Shown: piece by piece, positions 48,663 through 64,000 of the stretch | Position numbering within the stretch: the stretch's first letter is position 1 | Layout: each line of letters opens with the position of its first letter | From: Amycolatopsis sp. WQ 127309 | Lineage (GTDB): Bacteria; Actinomycetota; Actinomycetes; Mycobacteriales; Pseudonocardiaceae | Reading direction: 5' to 3' | NCBI RefSeq assembly: GCF_023023025.1 | Contig: NZ_CP095481.1 | Location: 558,001 to 622,000, forward strand | Length of the DNA: 64,000 nucleotides | The notes under the pieces: generated by a model | What the model was told of the DNA's origin: nothing | Seen by the model: only the letters and a program-made list of their open reading frames with translations | The model's database searches: none | Program-made: the position numbers and the translations under genes

Positions 48663-49931
48663 ATGCGCGTCCTGCTGGTCCTGCCCGCCGAGAAGAGCAT
48701 CTTCAACTACCTGGTGCCGGTCACCTGGGCGCTGCGCACCGCCGGGCACGAGGTGCACGTGGCGAGCCTGCCGCGGTTCGCGAGCACGATCACCCAGGCC
48801 GGGCTGACGGCGGTCCCGGTCGGGCACGACCGGGACCCGTGGCGCATCACCGAAAACCGGCCGGAGGAACGCGCGGCGCTGCGGGCCGGGGTGGCCGCGC
48901 CGTACGACCTGTTCGACGTCCCCGGGTCGGCCACGTGGGACTACCTGCGCGACGGGATGACCGCCGCGGTCAAGGGCTGGCACCGGCTGACGAACTTCCC
49001 GATGGTCGCCGACCTGGTCTCCTACACCCGGTACTGGGAGCCGGATCTCGTGCTGTGGGAGCCGCTCTGCTACGCCGGGGCGATCGCCGCCAAGGCGTGC
49101 GGCGCGGCGCACGGCCGGCTGCTGTTCGGCATCGACGTCTTCGGCGCCACGCGCGTCGACTACCTGCGGACGCAGGCCCGGCAGGCGCCGGCGGACCGCG
49201 CCGACCCGCTGGCCGGCTGGCTCGGCAGCTACGCCCGCAAGTACGGCTTCGACGCCGGTGAGGACCTCGCCGTCGGCGACTTCACCATCGACCAGCTGCC
49301 CGCGTCGCTGAGCCTGGACGCCGGTCTCGACACCGTCCGGGTGCAGTTCGTGCCCTACGGCGGGGCCGCGGTGGTACCTGACTGGCTGAAGCGGCCCGCG
49401 GAACGCCCCCGGGTCGCGCTGACCCTCGGCCTCACCGCGACCGAGGTCTTCGGCGGCTACAACGTGCCGCTGTCGGAGATCCTCTTAGGACTGTCCGAAC
49501 TGGACGTCGAGGTGGTCGCGACGGTCGCCGAGGACGTGCAGCGGACGCTGCCGTCGATGCCGGCGAACGTCCGGATGGTGCCGTACGTGCCGTGGCACGC
49601 GCTCGCCCCGACGTGCGCCGCGGTGGTGCACCACGCGGGCGCGGCGACCCTGGCCACCACGGCACGGCACCCGGTGCCGCAGCTGGCCCTGCACTTCCAC
49701 TTCGACCAGCCCTACCTCGGCCGCAAGCTCGCCGAACACGGCGCCGGCCTGGAGATCCACACGGGCGACGCGACCGGCTCCAACGTCCGCGACGCCGTCT
49801 CGCGCCTGCTCACCGAACAGTCTTTCAAAGCCCGCGCGGCAGACCTGCGCGACCAGATCTTCGCGCTCCCCACCCCGAACGAACTGGCCGGGACGCTCGA
49901 AGAGCTGACCGCCAAGCACCGCACCCGCTGA
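48663..49931 (+). CDS. Tandem glycosyltransferase 1 (EryCIII/DesVII type)
   Basis: The 422-residue GT-B enzyme starts MRVLLVLPAEKSIFNYLVP and has the array's common blocks: TWALRTAGHEV, ITQAGLTAVPVG, KACGAAHGRLLFGIDVF, YARKYGFDAGEDL and GGAAVVPDWLKRP. The donor block is HHAGAATLATTARHPVPQLALHFHFDQP. The second and third positions of the usual GxGT diphosphate loop are Ala-Ala, a trait shared with transferases 2, 5 and 10. The expected acceptor-side catalytic His is Ile or Ser. It heads the array and may be under the internal promoter upstream of the 4-ketoreductase. Donor and acceptor are unknown. Confidence 0.93.
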   Translation: MRVLLVLPAEKSIFNYLVPVTWALRTAGHEVHVASLPRFASTITQAGLTAVPVGHDRDPWRITENRPEERAALRAGVAAPYDLFDVPGSATWDYLRDGMTAAVKGWHRLTNFPMVADLVSYTRYWEPDLVLWEPLCYAGAIAAKACGAAHGRLLFGIDVFGATRVDYLRTQARQAPADRADPLAGWLGSYARKYGFDAGEDLAVGDFTIDQLPASLSLDAGLDTVRVQFVPYGGAAVVPDWLKRPAERPRVALTLGLTATEVFGGYNVPLSEILLGLSELDVEVVATVAEDVQRTLPSMPANVRMVPYVPWHALAPTCAAVVHHAGAATLATTARHPVPQLALHFHFDQPYLGRKLAEHGAGLEIHTGDATGSNVRDAVSRLLTEQSFKARAADLRDQIFALPTPNELAGTLEELTAKHRTR

Positions 49932-49950
49932 GCACCCGGAAAGGAGCACC

Positions 49951-51189
49951 ATGCGCGTCCTGTTCGCCACCACGCCGCAGAAGAGCGTCTTCCTGTACCT
50001 GGCGCCGATGGCGTGGGCGCTGCGCACCGCCGGCCACGAAGTGCGCTTCGCGAGCCAGCCCGCGCTGACGGACGTGATCACGCAGTCCGGCCTCACCGCG
50101 GTGCCGGTCGGGCACACCCGCAACCGCCGCCTCACCGACGTCGACGGCCGCGAAGAGGGGCGCGCCGGGCTGCCCGCGCCCTACGACGTCTTCGACGACT
50201 ACGAGCGCGCCACCTGGGAGTACCTCGAGCCCGGCATGGCCGACGCGGTGCGCGGCTGGCACTGGCTGACGAACCACCCGATGGTCGGCGGGCTCGTCGA
50301 GTTCGCCCGCGCCTGGCGGCCGGACCTGATCGTCTGGGAGCCGTTCTGCTACGCCGGGCCGATCGCCGCGAAGGCGTGCGGCGCAGCACACGCGCGTCTC
50401 CTGTTCGGCGTCGACGTCTTCGGCGCGGCCCGCGAGCAGTACCGGCGGCGGCTGGCCGAGGAGCCCGGCCGCGTCGACCACCTCGGCGCGTGGCTCGGCC
50501 GGTACGCGCGGATGTACGGCGCCGAGTTCTCCGAGGACATGACGACCGGGCAGTTCACCATCGACCAGTTCCCGGCGAGCCTGCAGCCGGCGACCGAGCT
50601 GGACGTCCTGCGCACGCAGTACATCCCGTACGGCGGCCCGGCCGTGGTGCCCGGCTGGCTGTCCAAGCCGCCGGAACGCCCGCGTGTCGCGATGACCCTG
50701 GGCCTGACCGCGACCGAGCACTTCAACGGCTACACCGTCGGCGTCCAGGAGGCCCTCGACGCGCTCGCCGACCTCGACATCGACCTGGTCGCGACCGTCG
50801 CGGAGAAGGCACAAGCGGAACTGACGCGCATCCCGGGCAACGCGCGGATCGTCTCGTACGTGCCGTGGCACGCGCTGGCCCCGACGTGCTCGGTCGTCGT
50901 CCACCACGCCGGCGCCGCGACCATGGCCACGACGTCCCGGCACCCAGTGCCGCAGCTGGCCCTGCACCACCACTACGACCAGCCGTTCCTCGGGCGCAAG
51001 CTGGCCGAGCACGGCGCCGGGCTGGAGCTGCCGACCCACCGCGCGACCGGCGCGCGGATCCGGGAGAGCGTCGAACGGCTGCTGACCGAACAGTCCTTCA
51101 AGGACCGGGCCGCGGACCTGCGCGACGAGATCCTCGGGCTGCCGTCACCGAACGCGATCGTGCCGGAGATCGAGGCGCGCGTCCGATGA
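49951..51189 (+). CDS. Tandem glycosyltransferase 2
   Basis: The 412-residue product belongs to the HHAGAAT subgroup (AATMATTSRHPVPQLALHHHYDQPFLGRKLAEHGAGL). The N-terminus reads MRVLFATTPQKSVFLYLAPM, so Val or Phe is present where His is usual. RYARMYGAEFSEDMTTGQFTIDQFPASL follows the family pattern, with Met in place of the Lys in RKYG. It has GGAAAGGAGCACC before the ATG, 19 bp after the preceding stop, and overlaps the next gene by ATGA. It is nearly the twin of transferase 1 in the donor domain, which suggests duplication and the same donor sugar class. Confidence 0.93.
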   Translation: MRVLFATTPQKSVFLYLAPMAWALRTAGHEVRFASQPALTDVITQSGLTAVPVGHTRNRRLTDVDGREEGRAGLPAPYDVFDDYERATWEYLEPGMADAVRGWHWLTNHPMVGGLVEFARAWRPDLIVWEPFCYAGPIAAKACGAAHARLLFGVDVFGAAREQYRRRLAEEPGRVDHLGAWLGRYARMYGAEFSEDMTTGQFTIDQFPASLQPATELDVLRTQYIPYGGPAVVPGWLSKPPERPRVAMTLGLTATEHFNGYTVGVQEALDALADLDIDLVATVAEKAQAELTRIPGNARIVSYVPWHALAPTCSVVVHHAGAATMATTSRHPVPQLALHHHYDQPFLGRKLAEHGAGLELPTHRATGARIRESVERLLTEQSFKDRAADLRDEILGLPSPNAIVPEIEARVR

Positions 51190-52418
51190 GAGTCCTGCTG
51201 ACCACCTACCCGGAGAAGACGTTCTTCTACCACCTGGTCCCGCTCGCCTGGGCGCTGCGCACGGCCGGGCACGAGGTGCGCGTGGCGTGCCAGCCGAAGT
51301 TCGCGCCTGTCGTCACCCAGGCCGGGCTGACCGCGGTGCCGGTCGGGTCCGACCGGAACTTCTGGCGGATCACCGAGACGCGCGCCGGCGGCACGGAGGC
51401 GATGCGCGAAGGGATCATGCCGCCCTACGACGCCTTCGACGACGTCGCCAAGCAGAACCTCGGCTACCTGCAGCCGGGCCTGACCGAGGCGGTGCGCGGC
51501 TGGCACCGGGTGAGCAACTTCCCCATCGTGGCCGGCCTCGTCGAGTTCGCGCGGGCCTGGAAGCCGGACCTCGTCGTCTGGGAGCCGCTGAGCCAGGCGG
51601 GCGCGATCGCCGCGCGGGCGTGCGGCGCGGCCCACGCGCGGATGCTGTGGAGCATCGACCTCTTCGGCGGCGTCCGCGACCACTACCTGCGGCTGCGCGG
51701 CGCCGAGCCGGACCCGTTCGAGGCGTGGTTCGCCGGTTACGGCCGCAAGTACGGCTTCGAGTTCGGCGAGGACATGGTCACCGGCGACTTCACCCTCGAC
51801 CACCTGCCGGGCAGCCTGCAGATCGAGGCCGGCCTGCCGTACCTGCGCTTCCAGTACGTCCCCTACGGCGGCCCGGCGACGGTGCCGGACTGGCTGCAAC
51901 GTCCCGCCGAGCGTCCGCGGATCGCGCTGACGATGGGCCTGAGCGCCACCGAGATCTTCGGCGGCTACCACCTGTCGCTGCCCGACGTCCTCGACGCACT
52001 GTCCGATGTGGACGTCGAGGTCGTGGCGACGGCACAGGGCCTCGGCACGGTACCGGCGAACGTCCGCCTGGTCTCGTACGTCCCGCTGCACGCGCTGGCG
52101 CCGACGTGCGCGGCCGCCGTCCACCACGGCGGCCTCGGTACCCTCGCCACGTTCGCCCGGGCGGGCGTCCCGCAGCTGTGCGTGCCGCACCACCTGGACG
52201 AGCCGATCTTCGCCGCCGGCCTGGCCCGCGTCGGTGCCGGCATCGACCTGCGCTCACCCACGGCCGACACGATCCGCGAGAGCGTCCGTCGGCTGCTCGA
52301 CGACCCGTCCTTCACGCGCGGCGCGGCGAACCTCCAGTCCGAAATGGACACCCTGCCGTCCCCGAACGACATCGTCCCCGAACTCGAAGACCTCACCGCC
52401 AAGTACCGCGCTCGCTGA
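51186..52418 (+). CDS. Tandem glycosyltransferase 3
   Basis: The 410-residue protein starts MRVLLTTYPEKTFFYHLVPLAWA. Its donor block HHGGLGTLATFARAGVPQLCVPHHLDEPIFAAGL keeps the normal GGxGT loop and differs from its neighbours by DEP-IFAAGLARVG. KYGFEFGEDMVTGDFTLDHLPGSLQ and FQYVPYGGPATVPDWLQRPAERP are typical. The signature RACGAAHARMLWSIDLF suggests an altered pocket. ATG 51186 overlaps the previous stop by 4 bp, so translation is coupled. It groups most closely with transferase 9 by its DEP/ARF arrangement, although this is from reading only. Confidence 0.93.
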   Translation: MRVLLTTYPEKTFFYHLVPLAWALRTAGHEVRVACQPKFAPVVTQAGLTAVPVGSDRNFWRITETRAGGTEAMREGIMPPYDAFDDVAKQNLGYLQPGLTEAVRGWHRVSNFPIVAGLVEFARAWKPDLVVWEPLSQAGAIAARACGAAHARMLWSIDLFGGVRDHYLRLRGAEPDPFEAWFAGYGRKYGFEFGEDMVTGDFTLDHLPGSLQIEAGLPYLRFQYVPYGGPATVPDWLQRPAERPRIALTMGLSATEIFGGYHLSLPDVLDALSDVDVEVVATAQGLGTVPANVRLVSYVPLHALAPTCAAAVHHGGLGTLATFARAGVPQLCVPHHLDEPIFAAGLARVGAGIDLRSPTADTIRESVRRLLDDPSFTRGAANLQSEMDTLPSPNDIVPELEDLTAKYRAR

Positions 52419-52432
52419 CCGGAAGAGAGACC

Positions 52433-53683
52433 ATGCGCGTCCTGCTCACCACCTACCCGGAGAAGACCATCTTCCAGCCGATGGTCACGCTGGCGTGGGC
52501 GCTGCGCACCGCCGGGCACGAGGTGCGGGTGGCGACCCAGCCGGGGTTCGAGGACGTCATCACCGGCGCCGGGCTCACCGCCGTGCCGGTCGGGCGCCGC
52601 GGCGTCGGCAACTGGCGGCGGCTCACCGAGGCCTACCCCGACCTGGCCGAAGCCGAGCGCGTCGGCCTGCCTTCGCCTTATGACGCCGCCGTTTCCGGCG
52701 TCGGTACGCGCGAGGAGATGGCTTCCGGATATGCGTCGATCCTCGAGCTTTGGCACAAGCAGAACAACTTCCCGCTGGTCACCGGCCTGGTCGAGTTCGC
52801 CCGGGCGTGGCAGCCGGACCTGGTGATCTGGGAGCCGACGACCTACGCGGGCGCGATCGCGGCCGCGGCGTGCGGTGCGGCACACGGCCGTCTCCTGTGG
52901 AGCATCGACGTCTTCGGCGCGGCCCGCGAACGGTTCCGCGCCCTCGGCCCGGGCCCCGATCCGCTGGCCGGCTGGATCGCCGGGTACGGCCGCAAGTACG
53001 GCTTCGCCTTCGCCGAGGAGCTGATCACCGGGCAGTTCACGATCGACCCGGTGCCGGAGCCGATCCGCCTCGACACGCGGCTGCCGACGCTGCCGGTGCA
53101 GTACGTCCCCTACGGCGGCGCGGCCGGCGTCCCGGACTGGCTGAAGCGCAGGAGCGACCGGCCGCGGATCGGCCTGACCCTCGGCACGACGGCCACCGAG
53201 CACTTCGGCGGCTACACGGTCAGCGTCCCGGACATCCTGGCCGCACTGTCCGATGTGGACGCCGAGATCGTCGCCACCCTGCCCGACGCCGAAGCCGCCA
53301 AGGTCACGGAAGTCCCGGCCAACGCCCGGATCGTGCCGTACGTGCCGCTGCACGCGCTCGTGCCGACGTGCGCGGCGGTCATCAACCACGCCGGGCCCGG
53401 CACCTACCTGACGACGGCCCGCTACGGCGTCCCGCAGCTGGCCGTGCCGTGGGAGTTCGACGAGCCGGAGCTGGCCCGCCGCGCGACGGTCCACGGTTCC
53501 GCACTGACCCTGACCGGCTCGGAGGTCTCGGGCAAGGCCGTCCGCGCGAACGTCCTGCGGCTGCTGTCGGAGCCGTCGTTCACCACCCGGGCGCGGGAAC
53601 TGGCCGCGCGGATGGCCGCCACGCCCTCGCCCAACGACGTCGTCCAGGCGCTCGAAGACCACGTCGCCCGGAGGAACGCATGA
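52433..53683 (+). CDS. Tandem glycosyltransferase 4
   Basis: The 416-residue enzyme is of the subgroup with NHAGPGTYLTTARYGVPQLAVPWEFDEPELARRATVHG, shared with transferases 11 and 12. The N-terminus MRVLLTTYPEKTIFQPMVTLAWA lacks the usual His. The acceptor half carries an insertion around residues 58-85 (RRGVGNWRRLTEAYPDLAE) not seen in transferases 1-3. KYGFAFAEELITGQFTIDPVPEP deviates from the FTIDQFPASL consensus. The stop overlaps a small 79-codon frame by ATGA. Confidence 0.93.
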   Translation: MRVLLTTYPEKTIFQPMVTLAWALRTAGHEVRVATQPGFEDVITGAGLTAVPVGRRGVGNWRRLTEAYPDLAEAERVGLPSPYDAAVSGVGTREEMASGYASILELWHKQNNFPLVTGLVEFARAWQPDLVIWEPTTYAGAIAAAACGAAHGRLLWSIDVFGAARERFRALGPGPDPLAGWIAGYGRKYGFAFAEELITGQFTIDPVPEPIRLDTRLPTLPVQYVPYGGAAGVPDWLKRRSDRPRIGLTLGTTATEHFGGYTVSVPDILAALSDVDAEIVATLPDAEAAKVTEVPANARIVPYVPLHALVPTCAAVINHAGPGTYLTTARYGVPQLAVPWEFDEPELARRATVHGSALTLTGSEVSGKAVRANVLRLLSEPSFTTRARELAARMAATPSPNDVVQALEDHVARRNA

Positions 53684-53919
53684 GGACCACCCGGCCCGGC
53701 CCCGGCCGTCCGGCCTTCCCGGCCACGGGAACGGCCGCCGCACTCGTGCTCGAAGCTCGCCGAGCGGAGGAACCCACGCGCGTTCTCACCGGCGCCTTCC
53801 CGGCGCTCCGCGACCTCGCCACCCGGTACCGGCGCAGCTCCCGGACGTCGAGCCCCGCCGTCCGCGCGAGTGTGCTGCGCCTGCCGGCCGCCGCTCCCTC
53901 GCCATCCGAAGCCCGCTGA
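53680..53919 (+). CDS. Small 79-residue protein inside the glycosyltransferase array, unknown
   Basis: The frame begins at ATG 53680, which overlaps the stop of transferase 4 by 4 bp (ATGA) and has GGAGGAACGC just upstream. It ends 14 bp before transferase 5. The product is basic, Pro/Arg/Ala-rich (PGRPAFPATGTAAALVLEAR, then PALRDLATRYRRSSRTSS) with no recognisable domain. Third codon positions are GC-rich as in real genes. It could be a small regulator or chaperone-like partner, a decayed glycosyltransferase piece or a chance frame. It is the only non-transferase frame in the array. Confidence 0.45.
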   Translation: MRTTRPGPGRPAFPATGTAAALVLEARRAEEPTRVLTGAFPALRDLATRYRRSSRTSSPAVRASVLRLPAAAPSPSEAR

Positions 53920-53933
53920 CCGGAGGAAAGCCC

Positions 53934-55199
53934 ATGCGCATCCTGTTCGTCTCCAACCCGCCCCGGACCGTCTACAAGTACATGTTCACCATCGCCTGGG
54001 CGCTGCGGACGGCCGGGCACGAGGTCCGGTTCGCCAGCCAGCCCGAGTTCGTCGACGAGGTCCTGCAGGCCGGGCTCACCGCGGTGCCCGTCGGGCACAG
54101 CCGCGACATGCACAAGGTCGCCGCCCGCACCCGCGGCGTCGAGAACGAGCGCGCGGGCATCCCGGCGCCCTACGACGTCTACGAAGAGCCCGAGAAAGCC
54201 ACCTGGGAACACATGGTCTCGACGATGGCCAACGAGGGCATCGAGTGGCACAAGTACGGCAACTTCCCGATCATCTCCGGGCTCGTCGAGTTCGCCCGCT
54301 ACTGGGAGCCCGACCTCGTCGTCTGGGACCCGCTGAGCTTCGCCGGCGCGATCGCGGCCAAGGCGTGCGGCGCGGCGCACGCGCGGCTGCTGTTCGGCGT
54401 CGACGTCTTCGGCAAGGTGCGGCAGCAGTTCGTGAAGCTGCGGGACGCGCAGCCGGCCGACCAGCGCCGCGACCCCTTGGCCGAGTGGATGGGCGCGTAC
54501 GCCCGCAAGTACGGCTTCGACTTCACCGAGGACATGTTCACCGGCGACTTCACCCTCGACCAGTTCCCGCTGAGCTGGCAGGACGAGGCCGACCTGGAGT
54601 ACGTGCGGACGCAGTACATCGCCTACAACGGCGCGTCCGTCGTCCCGAAGTGGCTGCAGACGCCGCCGGTGAAGCCGCGGATCGCGATCACCATGGGCAA
54701 CAGCGCCGTCGAGGTCTACCGCGGCTACAACGTGCCGCTGAGCGACCTGCTGGACTCCGTCGCCGACCTCGACGTCGAGGTGGTCGCCACGGTCGCCGCG
54801 TCGCAGCAGCCGCTGCTCGGCAAGACGCCGGACAACGCCCGGATCGTCGACTTCGCGCCGATGCACGCGCTGGCCCCGACGTGCTCGGTCGTCGTGCACC
54901 ACGCCGGCGCCGCGACCATGGGCACCACCGCGCGTCACCCGGTGCCGCAGCTGGCCCTGCCCTACCACTACGACCAGCCGACGCTCGGCAAGATGCTGGA
55001 GAAGCAGGGCGCCGGGCTGTCGATCCACGTTTCCGAGGTCACGCCGGAGAAGTTCCGCACGGCGATCGACCGGCTGCTCACCGAGCAGGTGTTCCAGGAC
55101 CGGGCGGTGGCCCTGCGCGACGAGATCTTCGCGCTGCCCACGCCGAACCAGGCCGTGCCGCGGATCGAAGAGCTCGTCGTGAAGCACCGGGCGCGGTGA
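53934..55199 (+). CDS. Tandem glycosyltransferase 5
   Basis: The 421-residue protein has an aberrant N-terminus, MRILFVSNPPRTVYKYMFTIAWA, in place of the VPLAWA pattern. Its donor block is HHAGAATMGTTARHPVPQLALPYHYDQPTLGKMLEKQGAGL (subgroup with transferases 1, 2 and 10). The nucleotide-side segment IAYNGASVVPKWLQTPPVKPRIAITMGNSAVEVY is the most changed in the array, with Asn-Ser instead of LT or LS after the glycines. DFTEDMFTGDFTLDQFPLSW follows the pattern. GGAGGAAAGCCC precedes the ATG. It ends one base before transferase 6. Confidence 0.93.
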   Translation: MRILFVSNPPRTVYKYMFTIAWALRTAGHEVRFASQPEFVDEVLQAGLTAVPVGHSRDMHKVAARTRGVENERAGIPAPYDVYEEPEKATWEHMVSTMANEGIEWHKYGNFPIISGLVEFARYWEPDLVVWDPLSFAGAIAAKACGAAHARLLFGVDVFGKVRQQFVKLRDAQPADQRRDPLAEWMGAYARKYGFDFTEDMFTGDFTLDQFPLSWQDEADLEYVRTQYIAYNGASVVPKWLQTPPVKPRIAITMGNSAVEVYRGYNVPLSDLLDSVADLDVEVVATVAASQQPLLGKTPDNARIVDFAPMHALAPTCSVVVHHAGAATMGTTARHPVPQLALPYHYDQPTLGKMLEKQGAGLSIHVSEVTPEKFRTAIDRLLTEQVFQDRAVALRDEIFALPTPNQAVPRIEELVVKHRAR

Positions 55200-55200
55200 C

Positions 55201-56430
55201 ATGCGCGTCCTGCTGACCACCTACGCCGAGCGCACCCACTTCCTGATGATGGTGCCGCTCGCGTGGGCGCTGCGCACCGCCGGGCACGACGTCCGGGTGG
55301 CGGTGCAGCCCAAGCTCGCCGGGGCGGTGACCGGGGCGGGGCTCACCGCCGTCCCGGTCGGGCACGACCGCGACCTGTGGGACCTGCTGCGCCGCACCGG
55401 GCCCGAGCACCTGTTCGGCGTCGAGACGGGCTGGCCCGCGCCCTACGACACGGCCGCACTGTCCACACCGGACTGGGACCACGTGCTGCGCGGCTACCGC
55501 GACATCGCCGTGCGCTGGCACAAGACGAGCAACGTCCCGCTGATCGACGACCTCGTCGAGTTCGCGCAGTGGTGGCAGCCGGACCTCGTGCTGTGGGAGC
55601 CGACGACGTACGCCGGCGCGATCGCGGCCAAGGCGTGCGGCGCGGCGCACGGCCGGATCCTGATCGGCGAGGACGTCTTCGGCCTGACCCGCGACCACTT
55701 CCTCCGGCTGCGACCGGACGGCGCCCCGGACCCGCTCGGCGAGTGGCTGGGGGCGTACGCGCGCAAGTACGGCGGCGAGTTCAGCGAAGACATGGTCACC
55801 GGGCAGTTCACGATCGACCAGCTCCCGGCGTCCCTGCGCCACCGGGCGCACCTGGAGCACGTCCCGATGCGGTACGTGAACTACGGCGGCGCCGCGGTGG
55901 TCCCGGACTGGCTCTCGACGCCACCTTCGCGCCCACGCATCGCACTCACCATGGGCCTGACCGCCCACGACCGCACCGGCGGCTACCCGGTCGACCTGCA
56001 GGACGTCCTCGACGCGGTCGACGGCCTCGACGTCGAGCTGGTCGCCACGGTCACCCCCGAGACCCGGCTGAGCCGGGTCCCCTCGCGAACGCGCCTGGTC
56101 CCGTTCGTGCCGTTGACCGCGCTGCTGACGACGTGCTCGGTCGCCGTCCACCACGCGGGCGTCGGCACCCTCGCCTCGACGGCGTTGCGCGGCATCCCGC
56201 AGCTGACCCTGCCCTGGGACGTCGACCAGCCCACGCTCGGCGCCCGCCTCGCGGCGCAGGACGCGGGCATCTCCATCCACGCCACCGAAGCCACCACCGA
56301 AGGCATCCGCGACGCGCTGGTCCGGCTGCTGCACGAACCCGCGTACACCAAGGGCGCCGCCCACCTGCGCGACGAGATGCTCGCGATGCCGTCACCCAAC
56401 GACGTCGCCCACCAGCTAACCGAGGGATGA
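55201..56430 (+). CDS. Tandem glycosyltransferase 6
   Basis: The 409-residue enzyme has the N-terminal pattern AERTHFLMMVPLAWALRT, one of only three in the array with His in the expected catalytic position. The donor block is HHAGVGTLASTALRGIPQLTLPWDVDQPTLGARLAAQDAGI. The core is KYGGEFSEDMVTGQFTIDQLPASLRHRAHLEHVPMRYVNYGG. The second half of the donor loop, TAHDRTGGYPVDLQDVLDAV, differs from its neighbours. It starts one base after transferase 5, so re-initiation is likely. Confidence 0.93.
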   Translation: MRVLLTTYAERTHFLMMVPLAWALRTAGHDVRVAVQPKLAGAVTGAGLTAVPVGHDRDLWDLLRRTGPEHLFGVETGWPAPYDTAALSTPDWDHVLRGYRDIAVRWHKTSNVPLIDDLVEFAQWWQPDLVLWEPTTYAGAIAAKACGAAHGRILIGEDVFGLTRDHFLRLRPDGAPDPLGEWLGAYARKYGGEFSEDMVTGQFTIDQLPASLRHRAHLEHVPMRYVNYGGAAVVPDWLSTPPSRPRIALTMGLTAHDRTGGYPVDLQDVLDAVDGLDVELVATVTPETRLSRVPSRTRLVPFVPLTALLTTCSVAVHHAGVGTLASTALRGIPQLTLPWDVDQPTLGARLAAQDAGISIHATEATTEGIRDALVRLLHEPAYTKGAAHLRDEMLAMPSPNDVAHQLTEG

Positions 56431-56434
56431 GGCC

Positions 56435-57694
56435 ATGCGCGTCCTGTTCACCACCTACCCGGAGAAGACCCACTTCCTCGCCATGGCGCCGCTCGCCTGG
56501 GCGCTGCGCACCGCCGGGCACGAGGTGCGGGTCGCGTGCCAGCCGAAGTTCGCCGACGTCGTCACGCAGGCCGGGCTCACCGCCGTGCCGGTCGGGCCGG
56601 ACCGCGACCTCTGGCAGCTGATGGCGCGGGACACGAACTGGTTCAGCGTCGGGCTCAACGGCCTGCCGGTGCCCTACGACACCGTCGACTGGCGCCCCGA
56701 GGACGTCTCCTACGAGTACCTCCGCGACGGCTACAAGCTGCACGTCACCAAGTGGCACAAGATGAGCAACGTCCCGTTGATCCCGGGCCTGGTCGAGTTC
56801 GCCCAGGCGTGGCAGCCGGACCTGGTGATCTGGGAGCCGTCGACGTACGCGGGCGCGATCGCCGCCGAGGCCGTCGGCGCGGCGCACGCGCGGCTGCTGT
56901 TCAGCCTCGACACCTTCGGCGTCACCCGCGACCACTTCACCCGGCTCAGCCCCGAAGGCGCCGAAGACCCGCTGAAGGAGTGGCTCGCGCCGGCCGCGGG
57001 CAAGTACGGCGTCCCGTGGAGCGAACGCCTCGTCACCGGTGAGTTCACGATCTCGCTGCTGCCGCCGTCGCTGCGCGTGGAGGCGGACCTCGACTACGTG
57101 CCGATGCGGTACGTGCCCTACGGCGGCCCCGCCGTGCTCCCGGCCTGGCTGCGCACGCCGCCGGAGAAGCCGCGGGTGGCGCTCACCATGGGCATCAGCA
57201 TCGCCGAGTCGAGCGGCGACATGGTCGACCTCGAGGACCTGTTCGACGAACTGTCCGATGTGGACATGGAACTCGTCGCGACGATCCCGGAGAGCGTCCA
57301 GGAGAAGCTCGGCCAGGTCCCGGACAACGTGCGGATGGTGTCCTTCGTGCCGCTGCACGCGCTGGTCCCGACCTGCACCGCCGTCATCCACCACGCCGGC
57401 TACGGCACCCTCGCGACGACGGCGTTGCACGGAAAGCCGCAGGTCATCGTGCCCTGGAACGCCGACGGGCCCGCGCTCGCCAAGCGCGTCGCCGCGCAGG
57501 GAGCCGGGCTGGCGCTGCACGTCCACCAGGCGTCGGCGCGCGGGGTGCTGCGCAACCGGCTGCTGCGCGTGCTCACCGAGCCGAAGTTCACCGAGGGCGC
57601 CCACCGGCTGCGCGACGAGATCCTCGCCATGCCGACGCCCAACGACGTCGCCGACCAGCTCGCCCGCCGCGTCGCGAAGGTGGCCATCGCGTGA
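56435..57694 (+). CDS. Tandem glycosyltransferase 7
   Basis: The 419-residue protein starts MRVLFTTYPEKTHFLAMAPLAWA and keeps the His. It is the only member in which the RKYGF..EDM segment is replaced, reading APAAGKYGVPWSERLVTGEFTISLLPPSLRVEAD. It has GEAVGAAHARLLFSLDTFGVTR instead of KACGAAH. The donor block is HHAGYGTLATTALHGKPQVIVPWNADGPALAKRVAAQGAGL. These changes make it the most divergent in acceptor recognition. Its GTGA overlap with the next gene couples them. Confidence 0.93.
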   Translation: MRVLFTTYPEKTHFLAMAPLAWALRTAGHEVRVACQPKFADVVTQAGLTAVPVGPDRDLWQLMARDTNWFSVGLNGLPVPYDTVDWRPEDVSYEYLRDGYKLHVTKWHKMSNVPLIPGLVEFAQAWQPDLVIWEPSTYAGAIAAEAVGAAHARLLFSLDTFGVTRDHFTRLSPEGAEDPLKEWLAPAAGKYGVPWSERLVTGEFTISLLPPSLRVEADLDYVPMRYVPYGGPAVLPAWLRTPPEKPRVALTMGISIAESSGDMVDLEDLFDELSDVDMELVATIPESVQEKLGQVPDNVRMVSFVPLHALVPTCTAVIHHAGYGTLATTALHGKPQVIVPWNADGPALAKRVAAQGAGLALHVHQASARGVLRNRLLRVLTEPKFTEGAHRLRDEILAMPTPNDVADQLARRVAKVAIA

Positions 57695-58932
57695 AGGTCC
57701 TCTTCGCCGCCAACCCCGAGAAGGCGCACTTCCTGCCGATGGTGCCGCTGGCCTGGGCGCTGCGCACCGCCGGGCACGAGGTGCACGTCGCGTGCCAGCC
57801 GAAGTTCGCGCCCGTCGTCACCCAGGCCGGGCTGACGGCGGTGCCCGTGGGCCGCGACGGCGACCTGTGGGACCTCATGCCGCGCCACCCTGACTACCGC
57901 GGCACCCAGTGGCGGCCGGCCTACGGGCTGCCGGTGCCGTACGAGGTCGCGGAGTTCCCGGAGAAGGCGACGCCGGAGTACCTCGAGGAGTCGTACGCGG
58001 CGATCCTGCACTACTGGCACAAGCCCGCGTGCTTCCCGATGATCGGCGGCCTGGTCGAGTTCGCCCGCGCCTGGGAGCCGGACCTCGTGCTGTGGGAGCC
58101 GCTGTGCTTCGCGGGCCCGATCGCGGCGCTGGCGTCCGGCGCCGCGCACGGCCGGATCCTGTGGAGCACCGACGTCTTCGGCGTCACGCGGTCGTTTCCC
58201 GCCGCCGGCGATCCGCTGGGTGACTGGCTCGGCGCGTACGCGCGCAAGCACGGCGGCGAGTTCACCGAGGAGCTGGTCACCGGGCAGTTCACGATCGACC
58301 AGCTCCCGGCGTCCCTTCGGCTCGCGACCGATCTGGAAACCGTGCCGCTGCAATACCTTCCGTACGGCGGATCGGCGTCCATCCCGGACTGGCTGCGCGA
58401 GCCGCCGGAGAAACCGCGGGTCGCGTTGAGCATGGGGATCAGCCTCACCGACCACGAGGCCGGATACTCGGTCGCGGTGCAGGACGTGCTGGATCACCTG
58501 GTCAAGCTGGACGTCGAGGTCGTCGCCACCCTGCCGGACGTCGAGAAGGCGAAGCTGGCGAGCATCCCCGACGGCGTCCGGATCGTGCCGTACGCGCCGC
58601 TCGAAGCCCTGGCGGCGACGTGCTCGGCGGTCGTCTCCCACGGCGGTTTCGGCACCTTCCTGACGACCGCGCGCCACGCCGTCCCGCAGCTGTGCACGCC
58701 GTGGGACTTCGACGGCCCGGTCTTCGCCGCCCGCGCCGCCGCGCAAGGCGGCGCCCTCGCCGTCCGCGCCGACCAAGCCACCGGCGAAGTGGTCGCGGAC
58801 GCCGTGGCCCGCCTGCTCGACGAGCCCGCCTTCGCGGACCGGGCCGCCGTCCTACGCGACGAGATCCGAGCCATGCCCACACCCAACGCGGTCGCCGAGC
58901 AGCTGGCCGCCCAGTACCGCAGGGGGTCGTAA
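57691..58932 (+). CDS. Tandem glycosyltransferase 8
   Basis: The 413-residue product starts with GTG 57691 and reads NPEKAHFLPMVPLAWALRTAGHEV, with the His retained and Pro at +3 as in ordinary GT1 enzymes. KYGGE-type KHGGEFTEELVTGQFTIDQLPASLR and SHGGFGTFLTTARHAVPQLCTPWDFDGPVFAARAAAQGG identify the acceptor and donor halves. The GGFGT loop is the classical type, so it may be the most conventional enzyme of the array. The stop overlaps the next ATG (TAATG). Confidence 0.93.
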   Translation: MKVLFAANPEKAHFLPMVPLAWALRTAGHEVHVACQPKFAPVVTQAGLTAVPVGRDGDLWDLMPRHPDYRGTQWRPAYGLPVPYEVAEFPEKATPEYLEESYAAILHYWHKPACFPMIGGLVEFARAWEPDLVLWEPLCFAGPIAALASGAAHGRILWSTDVFGVTRSFPAAGDPLGDWLGAYARKHGGEFTEELVTGQFTIDQLPASLRLATDLETVPLQYLPYGGSASIPDWLREPPEKPRVALSMGISLTDHEAGYSVAVQDVLDHLVKLDVEVVATLPDVEKAKLASIPDGVRIVPYAPLEALAATCSAVVSHGGFGTFLTTARHAVPQLCTPWDFDGPVFAARAAAQGGALAVRADQATGEVVADAVARLLDEPAFADRAAVLRDEIRAMPTPNAVAEQLAAQYRRGS

Positions 58933-60191
58933 TGCGGGTCCTGTTCACCGTCAGCCCGGGGACGACCGTGTTCAACAGCATGGTGCCGCTGGCCTGGGCG
59001 CTGCGCACCGCCGGGCACGACGTGCGCGTCGCGAGCCAGCCCGCGTTCGCCGACGAGATCACCCAGGCCGGGCTCACCGCCGTGCCGCTCGGACGGGACC
59101 TCGGTATCCCGCGGCTGCTGCTGGCCATGGGCATGGACAGCGCCGCGCTGGAGGAGGCGCGCCGCGGGCTGCCGGACCCGTACGCGGTGCTGGACGAGCC
59201 GGACTCGACCGACTGGGACCGCGCCCACCGCGCGTTCACCGAGGTCGCCGAGGGCGCGCGGTTCGAGACGTTCGCCATCATGTCGGCGCTCGTCGAGTTC
59301 GTCCGCGACTGGGAACCGGACCTCGTCGTGTGGGAGCCGTTCACCCCGGCCGGCGCGATCGCGGCCAAGGCCTGCGGCGCCGCCCACGCCCGGCTGCTCT
59401 ACGGCGTCGACGTCTACGCCTTTGCCCGCCGGCACTTCCTGAGCATCCGCGACGGCCGGAACGACCCTCTCGCGGACTGGCTCGGCGGATACGCGCGCAA
59501 GTACGGCGCGGAGTTCAGCGAGGACATGACGGTCGGCCAGTTCACCATCGACCAGATCCCGGCGAGCCTGCAGACCGAGTCGGACCTGCACTACCTGCGG
59601 ACGCCGTACATCCCTTACGGCGGCGCGGCGGTCGTCCCGCGCTGGCTGCAGCTGCCGCCGCAACGCCCGCGCGTCGCCCTCACCATGGGCCTGAGCGCGA
59701 CGGGGTACTTCTCCGGCTACACGGTGAACGTCCAGGACATCCTCGACTCCCTCGCCGACCTGGACATCGAGCTGGTCGCCACGGTCGCCGAGGCCGAACA
59801 GGCCAAACTCCAGCGGATCCCGGACAACGCGCGGCTCGTCCCGTACGTGGCCCTGCACGCGCTCGCCCCGACGTGCACGGCGGCGATCACGCACGCCGGT
59901 TTCGGCACGCTGACGGCGTTCGCGCCCTACGGCGTCCCGCAGCTGACGTTGCCGTTCCACTTCGACGAGCCGACGCTCGGCCACCGCCTCGCCGCCCAGG
60001 GCGCCGGCCTCAACCTCGACCCGACGCAGGTGACCGGCGCGAACGTCCGCGAAGGCGTCCTGCGCCTGCTCGACGAGCCGTCCTTCACCACGGCGGCCCG
60101 CCGCCTCCAGGCCGAGATCCGCGGGTTGCCCAGCCCCAACGACCTGGTCCCCGAGATCGAAGCCCTGACCGCCAAGCACCGAACCCGCTAG
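58932..60191 (+). CDS. Tandem glycosyltransferase 9
   Basis: The 419-residue enzyme starts MRVLFTVSPGTTVFNSMVPLAWA (no His). The mid-domain is KACGAAHARLLYGVDVYAFARRHFLSIRDGRNDPLADWLGGYARKYGAEFSEDM in parts, and the donor block THAGFGTLTAFAPYGVPQLTLPFHFDEPTLGHRLAAQGAGL. Thr replaces the first His of HHAG. It has an extra helix around residues 75-110 (MDSAALEEARRGLPDPYAVLDEPD). It runs 9 bp short of transferase 10, with GGAGCCGGCC between them. Confidence 0.93.
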   Translation: MRVLFTVSPGTTVFNSMVPLAWALRTAGHDVRVASQPAFADEITQAGLTAVPLGRDLGIPRLLLAMGMDSAALEEARRGLPDPYAVLDEPDSTDWDRAHRAFTEVAEGARFETFAIMSALVEFVRDWEPDLVVWEPFTPAGAIAAKACGAAHARLLYGVDVYAFARRHFLSIRDGRNDPLADWLGGYARKYGAEFSEDMTVGQFTIDQIPASLQTESDLHYLRTPYIPYGGAAVVPRWLQLPPQRPRVALTMGLSATGYFSGYTVNVQDILDSLADLDIELVATVAEAEQAKLQRIPDNARLVPYVALHALAPTCTAAITHAGFGTLTAFAPYGVPQLTLPFHFDEPTLGHRLAAQGAGLNLDPTQVTGANVREGVLRLLDEPSFTTAARRLQAEIRGLPSPNDLVPEIEALTAKHRTR

Positions 60192-60200
60192 GAGCCGGCC

Positions 60201-61436
60201 ATGCGCGTTCTGTTCGCGGTCAACCCGGAGAAGAGCACGTTCCTGTACCTCGTGCCGATGGCGTGGGCGTTGCGCACCGCCGGGCACGAGGTGCGGGTGG
60301 CGAGCCAGCCCGGGTTCGCCGACGTCATCACCCAGGCCGGCCTGACCGCCGTCCCGGTCGGGCGGGACGTCGACAAGTGGCGCGGCACCCGGCCCGAGCT
60401 GCTGGAACAGTCCCGCGCCGGGCTGCCCTCGCCGTGGGACGTCCTCGACGGGAACGAGGACGACCTCGTCGAGAAGCAGGAGCACGCCGTCGCGTCGATC
60501 CACCGGCCGGACAACGTGCCGATGCTCGCCGGGCTCGTCGAGTTCGCCCAGGCCTGGCAGCCGGACCTCGTGGTGTGGGAGCCGTTCTGCCTCGCCGGGC
60601 CGATCGCGGCCAAGGCGTGCGGCGCGGCGCACGCGCGGATGCTGTTCAGCGTCGACGTCTTCGGCCTGACCCGCGAGCACTTCCGCCGGACCCGGCCGGC
60701 GAAAGACCCGCTGGCCGACTGGCTCGGCGCGTACGGCCGCAAGTACGGCTTCGCGTTCACCGAGGACATGACCACCGGGCACTTCACGATCGACCAGTTC
60801 CCGGCGAGCCTGCAGGAGAACGCCGACCTCGGCTACGTGCGCACGCAGTACGTCCCCTACGGCGGCCCGGCCGTGATCCCGGACTGGCTCAAGCGCCCGC
60901 CGGAACGCCCCCGCGTCGGCCTCACCCTCGGCCTGACCGCGACGGAGATCTTCACCGGCTACACCGTCCCGCTGCGGGACGTCCTCACCGAACTGTCCAC
61001 TTTGGACGTCGAGGTCGTCGCGACCGTCGCCGAGGCCGAGCAGGAGAAGCTCGGGACGCTGCCGGCCAACGTCCGGGTCGTGTCGTACGTCCCGTGGCAC
61101 GCGCTGGTGCCGACCTGCGCCGCGATCGTGCACCACGCGGGCGCGGCGACGCTGCTCACGACGTCGCGCTACCCGGTGCCGCAGCTGGCCGTGCACTACC
61201 ACTTCGACCAGCCGATCCTCGGCCGCAAGCTGGCCGAGCACGGCGCCGGGCTCGCGCTGCACACCACCGAAGCGACCGGCACGGCCGTCCGCGACGCCGT
61301 CCGGCGGCTGCTCACCGAGCCGGAGTTCCGCCGCAGGGCCGTCGCGCTGCGCGGCGAAGTCCTCTCCGCCCCCAGCCCGAACGACCTGGTGCCGCGGCTC
61401 GAAGAGCTCACCGCCCGGCACCGCACCCGCCAGTAG
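60201..61436 (+). CDS. Tandem glycosyltransferase 10
   Basis: The 411-residue enzyme reads MRVLFAVNPEKSTFLYLVPMAWA and belongs with transferases 1, 2 and 5 by HHAGAATLLTTSRYPVPQLAVHYHFDQPILGRKLAEHGAGL. FTEDMTTGHFTIDQFPASLQENADLGYVRTQYVPYGGPAVIPDWLKRPPERP is close to transferase 2, suggesting the same acceptor or donor. No His is present at the expected position. The 16-bp gap to the next gene holds CAGGAGATCCC. Confidence 0.93.
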   Translation: MRVLFAVNPEKSTFLYLVPMAWALRTAGHEVRVASQPGFADVITQAGLTAVPVGRDVDKWRGTRPELLEQSRAGLPSPWDVLDGNEDDLVEKQEHAVASIHRPDNVPMLAGLVEFAQAWQPDLVVWEPFCLAGPIAAKACGAAHARMLFSVDVFGLTREHFRRTRPAKDPLADWLGAYGRKYGFAFTEDMTTGHFTIDQFPASLQENADLGYVRTQYVPYGGPAVIPDWLKRPPERPRVGLTLGLTATEIFTGYTVPLRDVLTELSTLDVEVVATVAEAEQEKLGTLPANVRVVSYVPWHALVPTCAAIVHHAGAATLLTTSRYPVPQLAVHYHFDQPILGRKLAEHGAGLALHTTEATGTAVRDAVRRLLTEPEFRRRAVALRGEVLSAPSPNDLVPRLEELTARHRTRQ

Positions 61437-61452
61437 AAGCCCAGGAGATCCC

Positions 61453-62787
61453 ATGCGCGTCCTGTTCACCGACACCCCCGAGCCGACGACGTTCATGCCG
61501 ATGGCCCCGCTGGCCTGGGCGTTGCGCACGGCCGGGCACGAGGTCCGGTTCGCCGCGGCCCCGATGTTCGCCGAGACGATCATCCAGGCCGGGCTGACGG
61601 CCGTCCCGGTCGGCCGCGACGTCGACCTGTACCGCCGCCTCGACGCCGTGATGGGCGCGCTCGACCACAACGCGGAGCTGAAGGCCGAGTTCGCGGGCGT
61701 CTCCGACGAAGACGCCTTGGAGCTGCTGAAACTCGAGTCCGGGATGCCCGCGCCCTACGACGTCGCCGAGTACCCCGAGCGCGCCGACTGGGAGAAGATG
61801 CTGCCGGCCTACGCGGGCGCGGTGTGGACCGACCACAAACCCGAGAACTTCCCGATGATCGCCGGGCTGGTCGAGTTCGCCCGCGCCTGGGAGCCGGACC
61901 TCGTGCTGTGGGAGCCGTCGACGTACGCGGGCGCGATCGCGGCCAAGGCCTGCGGCGCGGCGCACGGCCGGCTCCTGGGCCGGCTCGACGCGTTCGGCGT
62001 CACCCGGTCGCACTACCGGCGGCTGCTGGCGCAGCAGCCGGAAGACCAGCGTTACGACCCGTTCGCCGACTGGTACGAGGGCTACTGCGAGCGCTACGGC
62101 TTCGAGTTCGGCGAGGACATGGTCACCGGCCAGTTCAGCGTCGACCAGTTCCCCGGTTCGCTGCGGATGGCCGCCGACGACGTCGACTACCTGCCGATGC
62201 GGCACGTCCCGTACGGCGGCCCCGCGTCGGTGCCGCACTGGCTGTGGGCGGCGCCGACCCGCCCGCGCGTCGCGCTCACCCTGGGCAGCACCGCCGCCAT
62301 CCGGTTCGACGGCTACACCGTGGACGTCCAGGACGTCCTCACCGCGCTCGGCGACCTCGACATCGAGGTGATCGCCACCGTCGCCGACAACGTCCGCGGC
62401 CGGCTCACCGCGGTGCCGCGCAACACGCGGATCGTGCCGTACGCGCCGCTGCACGCCCTCGCGCCGACCTGCGACGTCGTGATCAACCACGCCGGCGCGG
62501 GCACCTACCTGGCCGTCGCGCTGCACGGCGTCCCGCAGCTGACGCTGCCGTGGGACCTCGACGAGCCCGAGCTGGCGCGCCGCGCCACCGCGCACGGGTC
62601 GGCGCTGATGATCCGCGGCGACCACGCGACCGGTAAGGACGTCGCCGACGGCGTCGCCCGCCTGCTCGCCGAGCCGCGGTTCCGCGCACGGGCCGTCGAC
62701 CTGCGGGACGAGATGCTCGCGCTGCCCTCGCCCAACGACGTCGTCGGCCAGCTGGAAGAGCTGACCGTGAAGTTCCGGACGCGCTGA
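61453..62787 (+). CDS. Tandem glycosyltransferase 11, extended N-domain
   Basis: At 444 residues this is the longest of the array. The extra 25-30 residues lie at about 58-95 (YRRLDAVMGALDHNAELKAE and SDEDALELLKLE), in the acceptor domain. The N-terminus MRVLFTDTPEPTTFMPMAPLAWA has no His. The donor block NHAGAGTYLAVALHGVPQLTLPWDLDEPELARRATAHG belongs to the subgroup of transferases 4 and 12. LGRLDAFGVTRSHYRRLLAQQPEDQRYDPF differs from the KACGAAH..GVDVF consensus. Its stop overlaps the next ATG by one base. Confidence 0.93.
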   Translation: MRVLFTDTPEPTTFMPMAPLAWALRTAGHEVRFAAAPMFAETIIQAGLTAVPVGRDVDLYRRLDAVMGALDHNAELKAEFAGVSDEDALELLKLESGMPAPYDVAEYPERADWEKMLPAYAGAVWTDHKPENFPMIAGLVEFARAWEPDLVLWEPSTYAGAIAAKACGAAHGRLLGRLDAFGVTRSHYRRLLAQQPEDQRYDPFADWYEGYCERYGFEFGEDMVTGQFSVDQFPGSLRMAADDVDYLPMRHVPYGGPASVPHWLWAAPTRPRVALTLGSTAAIRFDGYTVDVQDVLTALGDLDIEVIATVADNVRGRLTAVPRNTRIVPYAPLHALAPTCDVVINHAGAGTYLAVALHGVPQLTLPWDLDEPELARRATAHGSALMIRGDHATGKDVADGVARLLAEPRFRARAVDLRDEMLALPSPNDVVGQLEELTVKFRTR

Positions 62788-64000
62788 TGCGGATCCTGTT
62801 CACCGTCATCGCCGAGCGGACGATCTTCTGCTCGATGGTCCCGCTGGCCTGGGCGCTGCGGACGGCCGGGCACGAGGTGCGCGTCGCCTGCCAGCCCGCG
62901 TTCGCCGACGTGGTGACGCAGGCCGGGCTCACCGCCGTCCCGGTCGGGCGCGACGCGACGATCTGGCGGATGGAGAGCCTCGACCCGGCGCTGCTGGAGC
63001 AGGCGCGGGCCGGGCTGCCGAGCCCGTGGCGGGTGGTCGAGGACCCGGCCGGCGCCGACTGGGAAGACCTGCGCGAGGGCCACCGCGTCGCCGTCGACGA
63101 GGGCCACAAGCTGGAGAACTTCCCGCTGATCAACGGCCTCGCCGAGTTCGCCAGGGCGTGGGAGCCGGACCTGGTGATCTGGGAGCCGCTGACCTACGCG
63201 GGCCCGATCGCCGCGAAGGCGTGCGGCGCCGCGCACGCCCGGCTGCTCTGGAGCCTCGACGTCTTCGGCGCGACCCGCGAGATCTACCGGCGGACGGCGA
63301 ACGGCGCCCCCGAGGATCCGCTCGCGGACTGGCTCGGCGGCTACGGGCGCAAGTACGGCTTCGAGTTCGGCGAGGACATGACGACCGGGCAGTTCAGCAT
63401 CGACCAGGTACCGCCGTCGATCGGCCTGCGCGCGGGCGACCTGGACTACCGGCCGATGCAGTACGTCCCCTACGGCGGCCCGGCCGCCACCCCGGACTGG
63501 CTGCCCACCCAGCGTCCGCGCATCGGCCTCACCCTGGGCACCACGGCGACCGAGCACTTCGGCGGCTACGTCGTCAACGTCGCGGACACCCTGGCCGAGC
63601 TGTCCACTTTGGACGTCGACGTGGTGGCGACGGTCAAGGATCCCGCGTTCCCGATCCCGGCCAACGCGCGCGTGGTGCCCTTCGTCCCCCTGGACGCGCT
63701 GGCCCCGACCTGCGACGTCGTCATCGACCACGCCGGGCCGGGCACGTTCCTGACGGTGGCCCGCCACGGCGTCCCGCAGCTGACGGTCCCGTGGGACTTC
63801 GACGAGCCCGAGCTGGCCCGCCGCGCGGCCGCGCAGGGCGGGTCGCTCACCATCCGCGGCGACCGGGCGACCGGCGCCCGGATCCGCGAGGGCGTCGAAC
63901 GGCTGCTGGCCGAACCCTCGTTCAAGACTCGCGCCGCGGACCTGCGCGACGAGCTGCGCGGCCTGCCGTCCCCCAACGACGTCGCCGACGAGATCGAAGC
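62787..64000 (+). CDS. Tandem glycosyltransferase 12, cut by the window end
   Basis: At least 404 residues are visible; judged by its neighbours only about 5-15 are missing. The N-terminus MRILFTVIAERTIFCSMVPLAWA lacks the His. The donor block DHAGPGTFLTVARHGVPQLTVPWDFDEPELARRAAAQGG places it with transferases 4 and 11. It ends in the shared tail LRGLPSPNDVADEIEA. KYGFEFGEDMTTGQFSIDQVPPSIG has Ser in place of the Thr in FTID. The array may continue to the right. Confidence 0.93.
   Translation, partial: MRILFTVIAERTIFCSMVPLAWALRTAGHEVRVACQPAFADVVTQAGLTAVPVGRDATIWRMESLDPALLEQARAGLPSPWRVVEDPAGADWEDLREGHRVAVDEGHKLENFPLINGLAEFARAWEPDLVIWEPLTYAGPIAAKACGAAHARLLWSLDVFGATREIYRRTANGAPEDPLADWLGGYGRKYGFEFGEDMTTGQFSIDQVPPSIGLRAGDLDYRPMQYVPYGGPAATPDWLPTQRPRIGLTLGTTATEHFGGYVVNVADTLAELSTLDVDVVATVKDPAFPIPANARVVPFVPLDALAPTCDVVIDHAGPGTFLTVARHGVPQLTVPWDFDEPELARRAAAQGGSLTIRGDRATGARIREGVERLLAEPSFKTRAADLRDELRGLPSPNDVADEIE

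Follow-up and report, generated by a model that had tools for sequence, protein, structure and literature searches.

The locus described here raises the question of what a bacterium may build with a long row of glycosyltransferase (GT) genes of a single family. The window, by which we mean the whole stretch of 64,000 nucleotides analysed, comprises bases 558001–622000 of the 11,133,454-bp single-contig genome of Amycolatopsis sp. WQ 127309 (G000). We consider it quite probable that this locus is a saccharomicin-type cluster, and that its 16 tandem GTs and one detached GT assemble a long chain of 6-deoxysugars on a p-coumaroyl starter derived from tyrosine.

Genes of the window and its flanks (540–659 kb, a 119-kb region) were called with a codon-usage script. 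An earlier sequence-only reading of the window had reported twelve consecutive EryCIII/DesVII-type GT genes in an array still open at the window end. Twelve same-strand GT genes do start within 48663–64000; GT1–GT11 are complete and GT12 is 22 bp short at the window end. Extension of the contig added four more, and the full array consists of 16 consecutive head-to-tail genes on the plus strand (GT1–GT16, 48663 to window-equivalent 68959), the last 4.96 kb of which lie beyond the window. The strand changes after 68959. As had been read, the gaps between these genes range from −4 to +19 bp, with the exception of 250 bp between GT4 and GT5. The detached GT0 (39846–40958, minus strand) brings the total to 17. 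All 17 proteins match PF06722 above the curated cut-off, which excludes a chance match. The array proteins share 43–68% pairwise identity. GT0, which had been counted with the array, is a PF06722 GT but falls outside the array family, with about 28–34% identity to its members and without the array form of three sequence blocks. These blocks had been ascribed to every gene; WALRTAGH and GLTAV are indeed present in 16 of 16 array GTs (GLTAVAVG in GT15), but the complete ELT.KHRTR tail is seen in some of them only. The six array GTs scored against TIGR04516 (GT1, GT5, GT6, GT7, GT9 and GT10) all pass the cut-off of 440 bits (GT1 457, GT10 455.6), and GT0 scores 215 bits. In agreement with the earlier reading, polyketide synthase and nonribosomal peptide synthetase families are absent from the Pfam results for 20 genes around the array, a set that covers part of the window genes, apart from an AMP-binding match of g83 below the cut-off.

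The assignment to the saccharomicin type rests on comparison with the saccharomicin (sam) cluster of Saccharothrix espanaensis DSM 44229, in which 14 non-GT genes of our locus have reciprocal best hits (RBHs). All eight sam NDP-sugar genes are among these pairs (66–84%), together with an ammonia-lyase (80%), a ligase (66%), a carrier protein (66%), a pair of PH-domain proteins (65% and 47%) and g85 (41%). The ammonia-lyase g82 contains the ASG triad. Like our locus, sam has one run of same-family GTs adjoining the shared genes. With a GT run, eight of eight NDP-sugar genes, and counterparts of the tyrosine ammonia-lyase Sam8 and the acyl ligase Sam7, the locus is by gene content a saccharomicin-type cluster. 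It encodes 16+1 GTs versus ten in sam (60–70% more), which bears out the earlier suggestion of a saccharomicin-like cluster with more transferases. The features are listed below in window coordinates; positions beyond the window are counted on L002, base 1 of which is G000:C1:621001.

34828–35814, minus strand: g51, dTDP-glucose 4,6-dehydratase, RmlB type (TIGR01181 440 bits, cut-off 365)
35845–36873, minus strand: g52, class I methyltransferase (Pfam Methyltransf_25)
36873–38102, minus strand: g53, sugar C-methyltransferase, Sam34 counterpart (PF08484/PF08421; RBH 75%)
38136–39131, minus strand: g54, GFO/IDH/MocA-type sugar ketoreductase, Sam33 counterpart (PF01408; RBH 66%)
39128–39808, minus strand: g55, dTDP-sugar 3,5- or 5-epimerase, Sam32 counterpart (PF00908; RBH 75%)
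39846–40958, minus strand: GT0, detached divergent EryCIII-like glycosyltransferase (PF06722)
41014–42420, minus strand: g57, NDP-hexose 2,3-dehydratase, Sam31 counterpart (PF03559, E 1.6e-150; RBH 77%)
42457–43566, minus strand: g58, DegT-type sugar aminotransferase, Sam30 counterpart (PF01041; RBH 81%)
43965–44321, plus strand: g59, likely stand-alone carrier protein, Sam25 counterpart (D-S-F-S motif; RBH 66%)
44446–44952, plus strand: g60, bPH_2 membrane protein, YdbS-like, Sam24 counterpart (PF03703; RBH 65%)
44949–46505, plus strand: g61, bPH_2 membrane protein, YdbT-like, Sam23 counterpart (PF03703; RBH 47%)
46597–47517, plus strand: g62, aldo/keto reductase, Sam22 counterpart (PF00248; RBH 67%)
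47648–48652, plus strand: g63, SDR sugar 4-ketoreductase-type protein, Sam21 counterpart (PF01370; RBH 70%)
48663–49931, plus strand: GT1, fucosyl-type clade with Sam17 and Sam20 (TIGR04516 457 bits; clade 99/99)
49951–51189, plus strand: GT2, fucosyl-type clade (GT tree)
51186–52418, plus strand: GT3, fucosyl-type clade (GT tree)
52433–53683, plus strand: GT4, saccharosaminyl-type clade with Sam18 (99/94)
53684–53933, plus strand: 250-bp spacer, probably non-coding (79-codon frame broken in a second species)
53934–55199, plus strand: GT5, fucosyl-type clade (GT tree)
55201–56430, plus strand: GT6, rhamnosyl-type, with Sam16 (clade 100/100)
56435–57694, plus strand: GT7, digitoxosyl-type, with Sam15 (clade 99/100)
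57691–58932, plus strand: GT8, 4-epivancosaminyl-type, with Sam14 (clade 100/100)
58932–60191, plus strand: GT9, grouped with Sam13 (clade 94/95, fork open)
60201–61436, plus strand: GT10, fucosyl-type clade (TIGR04516 455.6 bits; GT tree)
61453–62787, plus strand: GT11, no Sam counterpart, A. suaedae ortholog (100/100 with Asua_34)
62787–64022 (window ends at 64000), plus strand: GT12, no resolved Sam counterpart (GT tree)
L002:1028–5959, plus strand: GT13 (saccharosaminyl-type), GT14 (Sam13 group), GT15 and GT16 (no Sam counterpart)
L002:6036–11205, minus strand: block g80–g84, beyond the window
L002:6677–7690, minus strand: g81, GH113-like/AcvX-like protein
within L002:6036–11205, minus strand: g82, aromatic ammonia-lyase, Sam8 counterpart (RBH 80%)
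within L002:6036–11205, minus strand: g83, AMP-binding ligase, Sam7 counterpart (RBH 66%)
within L002:6036–11205, minus strand: g84, RmlA (RBH 84%)
L002:12129–12854, plus strand: g85, likely regulator-like gene (RBH 41% in the sam region)

The two clusters differ at what would be the aglycon end of the product. Our locus contains g51, g52, GT0, g80 and g81, which the S. espanaensis region lacks. Conversely, the 4-coumarate 3-hydroxylase Sam5, the Sam29 decarboxylase, the Sam36 penicillin amidase, a sulfotransferase-like protein (a weak Pfam hit below cut-off) and an APS kinase have no counterpart in our 119-kb region. The same holds for an AraC-type regulator, a methyltransferase, a GNAT-type gene, a PLP enzyme and gene 39 of the sam region. 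For this comparison we inferred the sam numbering by the rule that the region gene number equals the sam number plus 11. The order of the region fits the published numbering: gene 16 is Sam5 (HpaB-type), 18 is Sam7, 19 is Sam8, 22–31 are Sam11–Sam20, 40 is Sam29 (aspartate-decarboxylase type) and 47 is Sam36. The locus thus resembles a described cluster in the 14 shared non-GT genes, but differs from it in its GTs, in the genes for the aglycon tail and in several accessory genes. The starter probably remains unhydroxylated and without taurine or sulfate, given that the locus holds no counterpart to the sam genes of hydroxylation, of taurine supply, of sulfation or of amide formation. With these tail genes lacking and orthologs found for part of the ten Sam GTs, the gene content indicates that this is not a cluster for saccharomicin proper, which carries a sulfated caffeoyl-taurine aglycon.

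We propose that g82 would convert tyrosine to p-coumarate, which g83 may activate and load onto the carrier protein g59. The sugar set of saccharomicin (D-fucose, D-saccharosamine, L-rhamnose, L-4-epivancosamine and L-digitoxose) would be supplied by g84, g51, g57, g58, g55, g53, g54, g62 and g63. GT1–GT16 are predicted to lengthen the chain by single deoxysugars; the first would be attached to the phenol, the starting point reported for Sam20. The g60/g61 pair may export the product or protect the cell. Loading onto a carrier departs from the route proposed by the authors of the sam study, who favoured a CoA ester of coumarate. An alignment of 31 sequences shows an invariant D-S-F-S motif at residues 44–47 of g59, and in the structural model (mean pLDDT 76.6) a helix begins at S45. 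Carrier proteins make up most of the 50 Foldseek matches listed, all with E > 0.2, and likewise most of the weak profile matches. As modelled, g59 is likely a stand-alone carrier protein.

The Pfam scan of 20 cluster genes returned no transporter family. DdE/DdF, a similar pair of PH-domain proteins, is required for export of the leaderless bacteriocin enterocin DD14 (PMC8657885); by analogy, g60/g61 likely serve in export or self-protection. In a survey of 27 related regions described below, g60 and g61 occur together in 16, and in 14 of the 16 regions with runs of at least seven GTs; the exceptions are G184 and a second K. banguiense cluster. Of the 19 regions that encode an ammonia-lyase relative, 17 also contain a relative of g59; G695 and the S. 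pacifica locus do not.

To assign sugar donors we placed the array in a tree that covers five clusters and 70 GTs. A 2021 review (PMC8234114), which is also the source for the functions of Sam8 and Sam5, describes Sam20 and Sam17 as fucosyl-, Sam19 and Sam18 as saccharosaminyl-, Sam16 as rhamnosyl-, Sam15 and Sam11 as digitoxosyl-, and Sam14 and Sam12 as epivancosaminyltransferases. By subtraction from the composition of saccharomicin, Sam13 would add the fourth epivancosamine. GT1, GT2, GT3, GT5 and GT10 fall into a set of 19 proteins with Sam17 and Sam20 (support 99/99), and GT4 and GT13 group with Sam18 (99/94). GT6 pairs with Sam16 (100/100), GT7 with Sam15 (99/100) and GT8 with Sam14 (100/100). 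GT9 and GT14 lie near Sam13 (94/95, fork open); GT11, GT12, GT15 and GT16 pair with proteins of A. suaedae and with no Sam enzyme. Clade membership makes it likely that, among ten GTs, five are of the fucosyl type and two of the saccharosaminyl type, and that the rhamnosyl, digitoxosyl and epivancosaminyl types are represented by a single enzyme each. The clusters of K. banguiense and A. suaedae also contain five fucosyl-clade GTs each.

How did the array arise? Growth by duplication, as the sequence-only reading had proposed, is supported, although the events are old. For 15 of the 16 array GTs the nearest relative is a GT encoded in another genome and not a paralog in the array, the exception being GT15, which is nearer to GT16; this rules out a recent tandem burst. 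Gene order is conserved as well: A. suaedae shares 11 RBHs with the array, all 11 in the same order, K. banguiense shares ten (longest ordered run nine, permutation p 5e-05) and S. tamanrassetensis eight (seven in increasing order, p 0.0011). GT6–GT9 follow the order Sam16–Sam13. The closer kinship to foreign GTs and the conserved order indicate that the array grew by duplications mostly older than the split of these lineages.

The suspicion that the array is an assembly duplication can be set aside as practically negligible. Its members are only 43–68% identical to one another, and an independent Amycolatopsis genome (G735, one contig of 10.48 Mb) contains the same cluster gene for gene, with 16+1 GTs and one-to-one protein identities of 94–100% (rounded). 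Between the two genomes, dN/dS ranges from 0.018 to 0.190 across all 16 array GTs, which indicates purifying selection; an intact cluster in a second species and selection on its genes together exclude an assembly artefact. The same comparison bears on the possible 79-codon frame that had been noticed in the 250-bp spacer between GT4 and GT5. A one-base indel breaks this frame in the second species, and it is probably not a gene. The predicted RNA folding of the spacer is no better than that of shuffled sequences (z 1.17), and a search for promoter and terminator consensus sequences around it found none.

To place the array among its relatives, we screened 297 family members with TIGR04516, scoring about five candidates in each genome; 209 genomes had a match at 1e-30, and a selection of the candidate regions was taken forward. 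In a second screen with GT10, the genomes with a match numbered 17 at E ≤ 1e-120 among 390 of the family (apparently an unsampled set), 13 at 1e-90 among 80 of the genus, five at 1e-120 in a class sample of 394 and one at 1e-110 in a phylum sample of 396; these samples overlap, and each count includes the present genome. A scan of genome contigs by exact-peptide seeding, which misses much, returned at least 12 loci. GTs were then counted by one method in 27 regions, our own included; G014 (run of four), G031 (three, at a contig end) and four regions without a run are excluded. Saccharomicin had been thought the sole comparable case. The count corrects this: the longest same-strand runs are 16 in our genome and in G735, 15 in A. 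suaedae, 14 in K. banguiense, 12 in S. tamanrassetensis, 11 in A. sandaracinus, ten in S. espanaensis, nine in G184 and in the second K. banguiense cluster, and eight in P. cavernicola and G1030 (where the contig ends). Five regions have seven, G945 has five on a 5.7-kb contig, and the other ten have one to three. Runs of 8–16 GTs thus occur in 11 of 27 regions, and 16 is the longest run among the genomes searched. In total GTs, A. suaedae also reaches 17 (15+1+1), K. banguiense has 15 (14+1) and S. tamanrassetensis 12. The second K. banguiense cluster (9+2 GTs) lies at G163:C1:11186942–11207009. An ammonia-lyase relative (at least 64%) is present in 19 of the 27 regions; several of the others end at contig or locus ends.

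The A. suaedae and K. banguiense clusters have the same gene set as ours, including g52, GT0, g80 and g81, with GT order largely kept, runs one or two GTs shorter and identities of about 40–84% for shared non-GT genes. A. suaedae differs by an extra GT beside the carrier protein and lacks RmlB in the region read. Relatives of GT0 (52–62%) occur in these two, A. sandaracinus and P. cavernicola; g52 is common to these first two, P. cavernicola, G735 and G090. In a profile search, the g81 family matches AcvX, a protein of solved structure (7y4h), at E 2e-100, and mannanases weakly. The gene g85 likely encodes an LmbU-like regulator. A metK gene (SAM synthetase), one of three copies in the genome, lies at the cluster edge (G000:C1:634021–635217; L002:13021–14217).

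Six genomes (G214, G260, G722, G734, G090 and G016; loci L034–L036, L047–L049, L052–L053, L066–L068, L108–L111) contain a related ammonia-lyase and/or ligase and deoxysugar genes with only 3–6 GTs; these clusters probably belong to the same family of pathways as smaller members. They lend some weight to the idea that the array makes several short chains or branches on one or more aglycons, or is partly redundant, with fewer sugars than GTs. Array neighbours are also slightly closer kin than expected from random order (permutation p 0.0048). We regard this idea as unlikely, given that none of the 16 array GTs shows relaxed selection and that GT order is kept across genera.

Several observations weigh against a saccharomicin-type chain assembled as proposed above. 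The carrier call for g59 is weak by score (best Foldseek E 0.23), with no carrier match in Pfam. Two HpaB-type hydroxylases encoded elsewhere in the genome (8.29 and 11.09 Mb) make hydroxylation of the starter in trans possible. Clade membership is the sole basis of the donor assignments, and for seven GTs of 17 (GT0, GT9, GT11, GT12, GT14, GT15 and GT16) no supported clade with a Sam enzyme points to a donor. Sam11, Sam12 and Sam19 lack counterparts among GT1–GT16 in the tree, and the order of the six RBHs shared with S. espanaensis is not significantly conserved (longest ordered run four, permutation p 0.29). Finally, the histidine at residue 13, which we take from the GT-B literature to be the catalytic base, occurs within the array only in GT6, GT7, GT8, GT15 and GT16; its absence from the other 11 of the 16 could be read as loss of activity.

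This histidine is found in 24 of 24 readable GTs from the 30 best TIGR04516 loci, which lie outside long arrays (at least one, L029, belongs to the small relative cluster of G260), and also, according to the alignment, in the two best-matching proteins of solved structure. Across six array clusters it is present in only 20 of 79 GTs. Seven of ten Sam GTs lack it (Sam14, Sam15 and Sam16 being the exceptions); since Sam GTs without it are reported to be functional, its absence suggests an altered catalytic arrangement more than decay. His 13 is no clean marker of D- versus L-sugar donors: it is missing in all four D-sugar Sam GTs, but also in the L-sugar enzymes Sam11 and Sam12. The array GTs are homologous over their full length to activator-dependent EryCIII/DesVII-type GTs (TIGR04516; solved structures 3wad and 2yjn). 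Unlike those systems, the array is not accompanied by a gene for a P450-related activator (TIGR04515) within the cluster or close to it. In the whole genome the best match to that family scores 296 bits (at 6.06 Mb), under the cut-off of 343 bits, and the match nearest to the cluster, at position 549 kb, scores 143.5 bits.

How long a chain may such an array make? Under the reading that we prefer, a long 6-deoxysugar chain on a coumaroyl starter, the product likely carries a dozen or more sugars. The sequence-only reading had expected more than in saccharomicin, which a 2012 paper calls the largest oligosaccharide antibiotic and the 2021 review the longest saccharide chain in natural products, with only two saccharomicins known (PMC8234114). 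The Sam GTs are reported to act iteratively, ten enzymes forming 17 linkages. A larger product is for this reason possible, but not implied by the GT count. If iteration were kept at the same ratio, 16–17 GTs would make about 27–29 linkages. We find such a product, far longer than saccharomicin at more than about 20 sugars, improbable: the extra GTs fall largely into the fucosyl clade, whose Sam members iterate, and division of labour fits this distribution better.

Dedicated paralogs that replace iteration, one enzyme per residue, would give a product of about 17 sugars, an explanation that we hold as a tentative possibility. The 17 GTs equal the 17 sugars of saccharomicin, and the five fucosyl-clade GTs, a number repeated in K. 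banguiense and A. suaedae, equal its five fucoses, which in sam are added by two iterating enzymes; purifying selection on every array GT and the separate ancient lineages kept by 15 of 16 point the same way. The match in numbers may be coincidence, however: A. suaedae also has 17 GTs, yet the totals are 15 in K. banguiense and 12 in S. tamanrassetensis; the four saccharosamine residues of saccharomicin compare with only two GTs placed in the saccharosaminyl clade; and GT0 may act on something else. Rather unlikely, in our estimate, is the more general scheme in which the array is a chain program of about 17 ancient, order-conserved GTs that add one residue each, most of them of a GT-B class without the canonical histidine base, with array length (2–16 tandem GTs) setting chain length.

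Among the titles and abstract openings listed by literature searches aimed at this cluster type, we recognised nothing that describes this cluster or a larger array. The locus adds a saccharomicin relative with 60–70% more transferases and a probably different aglycon end to a cluster family whose longest runs range from 2 to 16 GTs. This series makes it testable whether the number and order of GT genes set the length and sequence of an untemplated sugar chain, and the enlarged fucosyl set provides natural paralogs with which iterative and dedicated glycosyl transfer may be separated.

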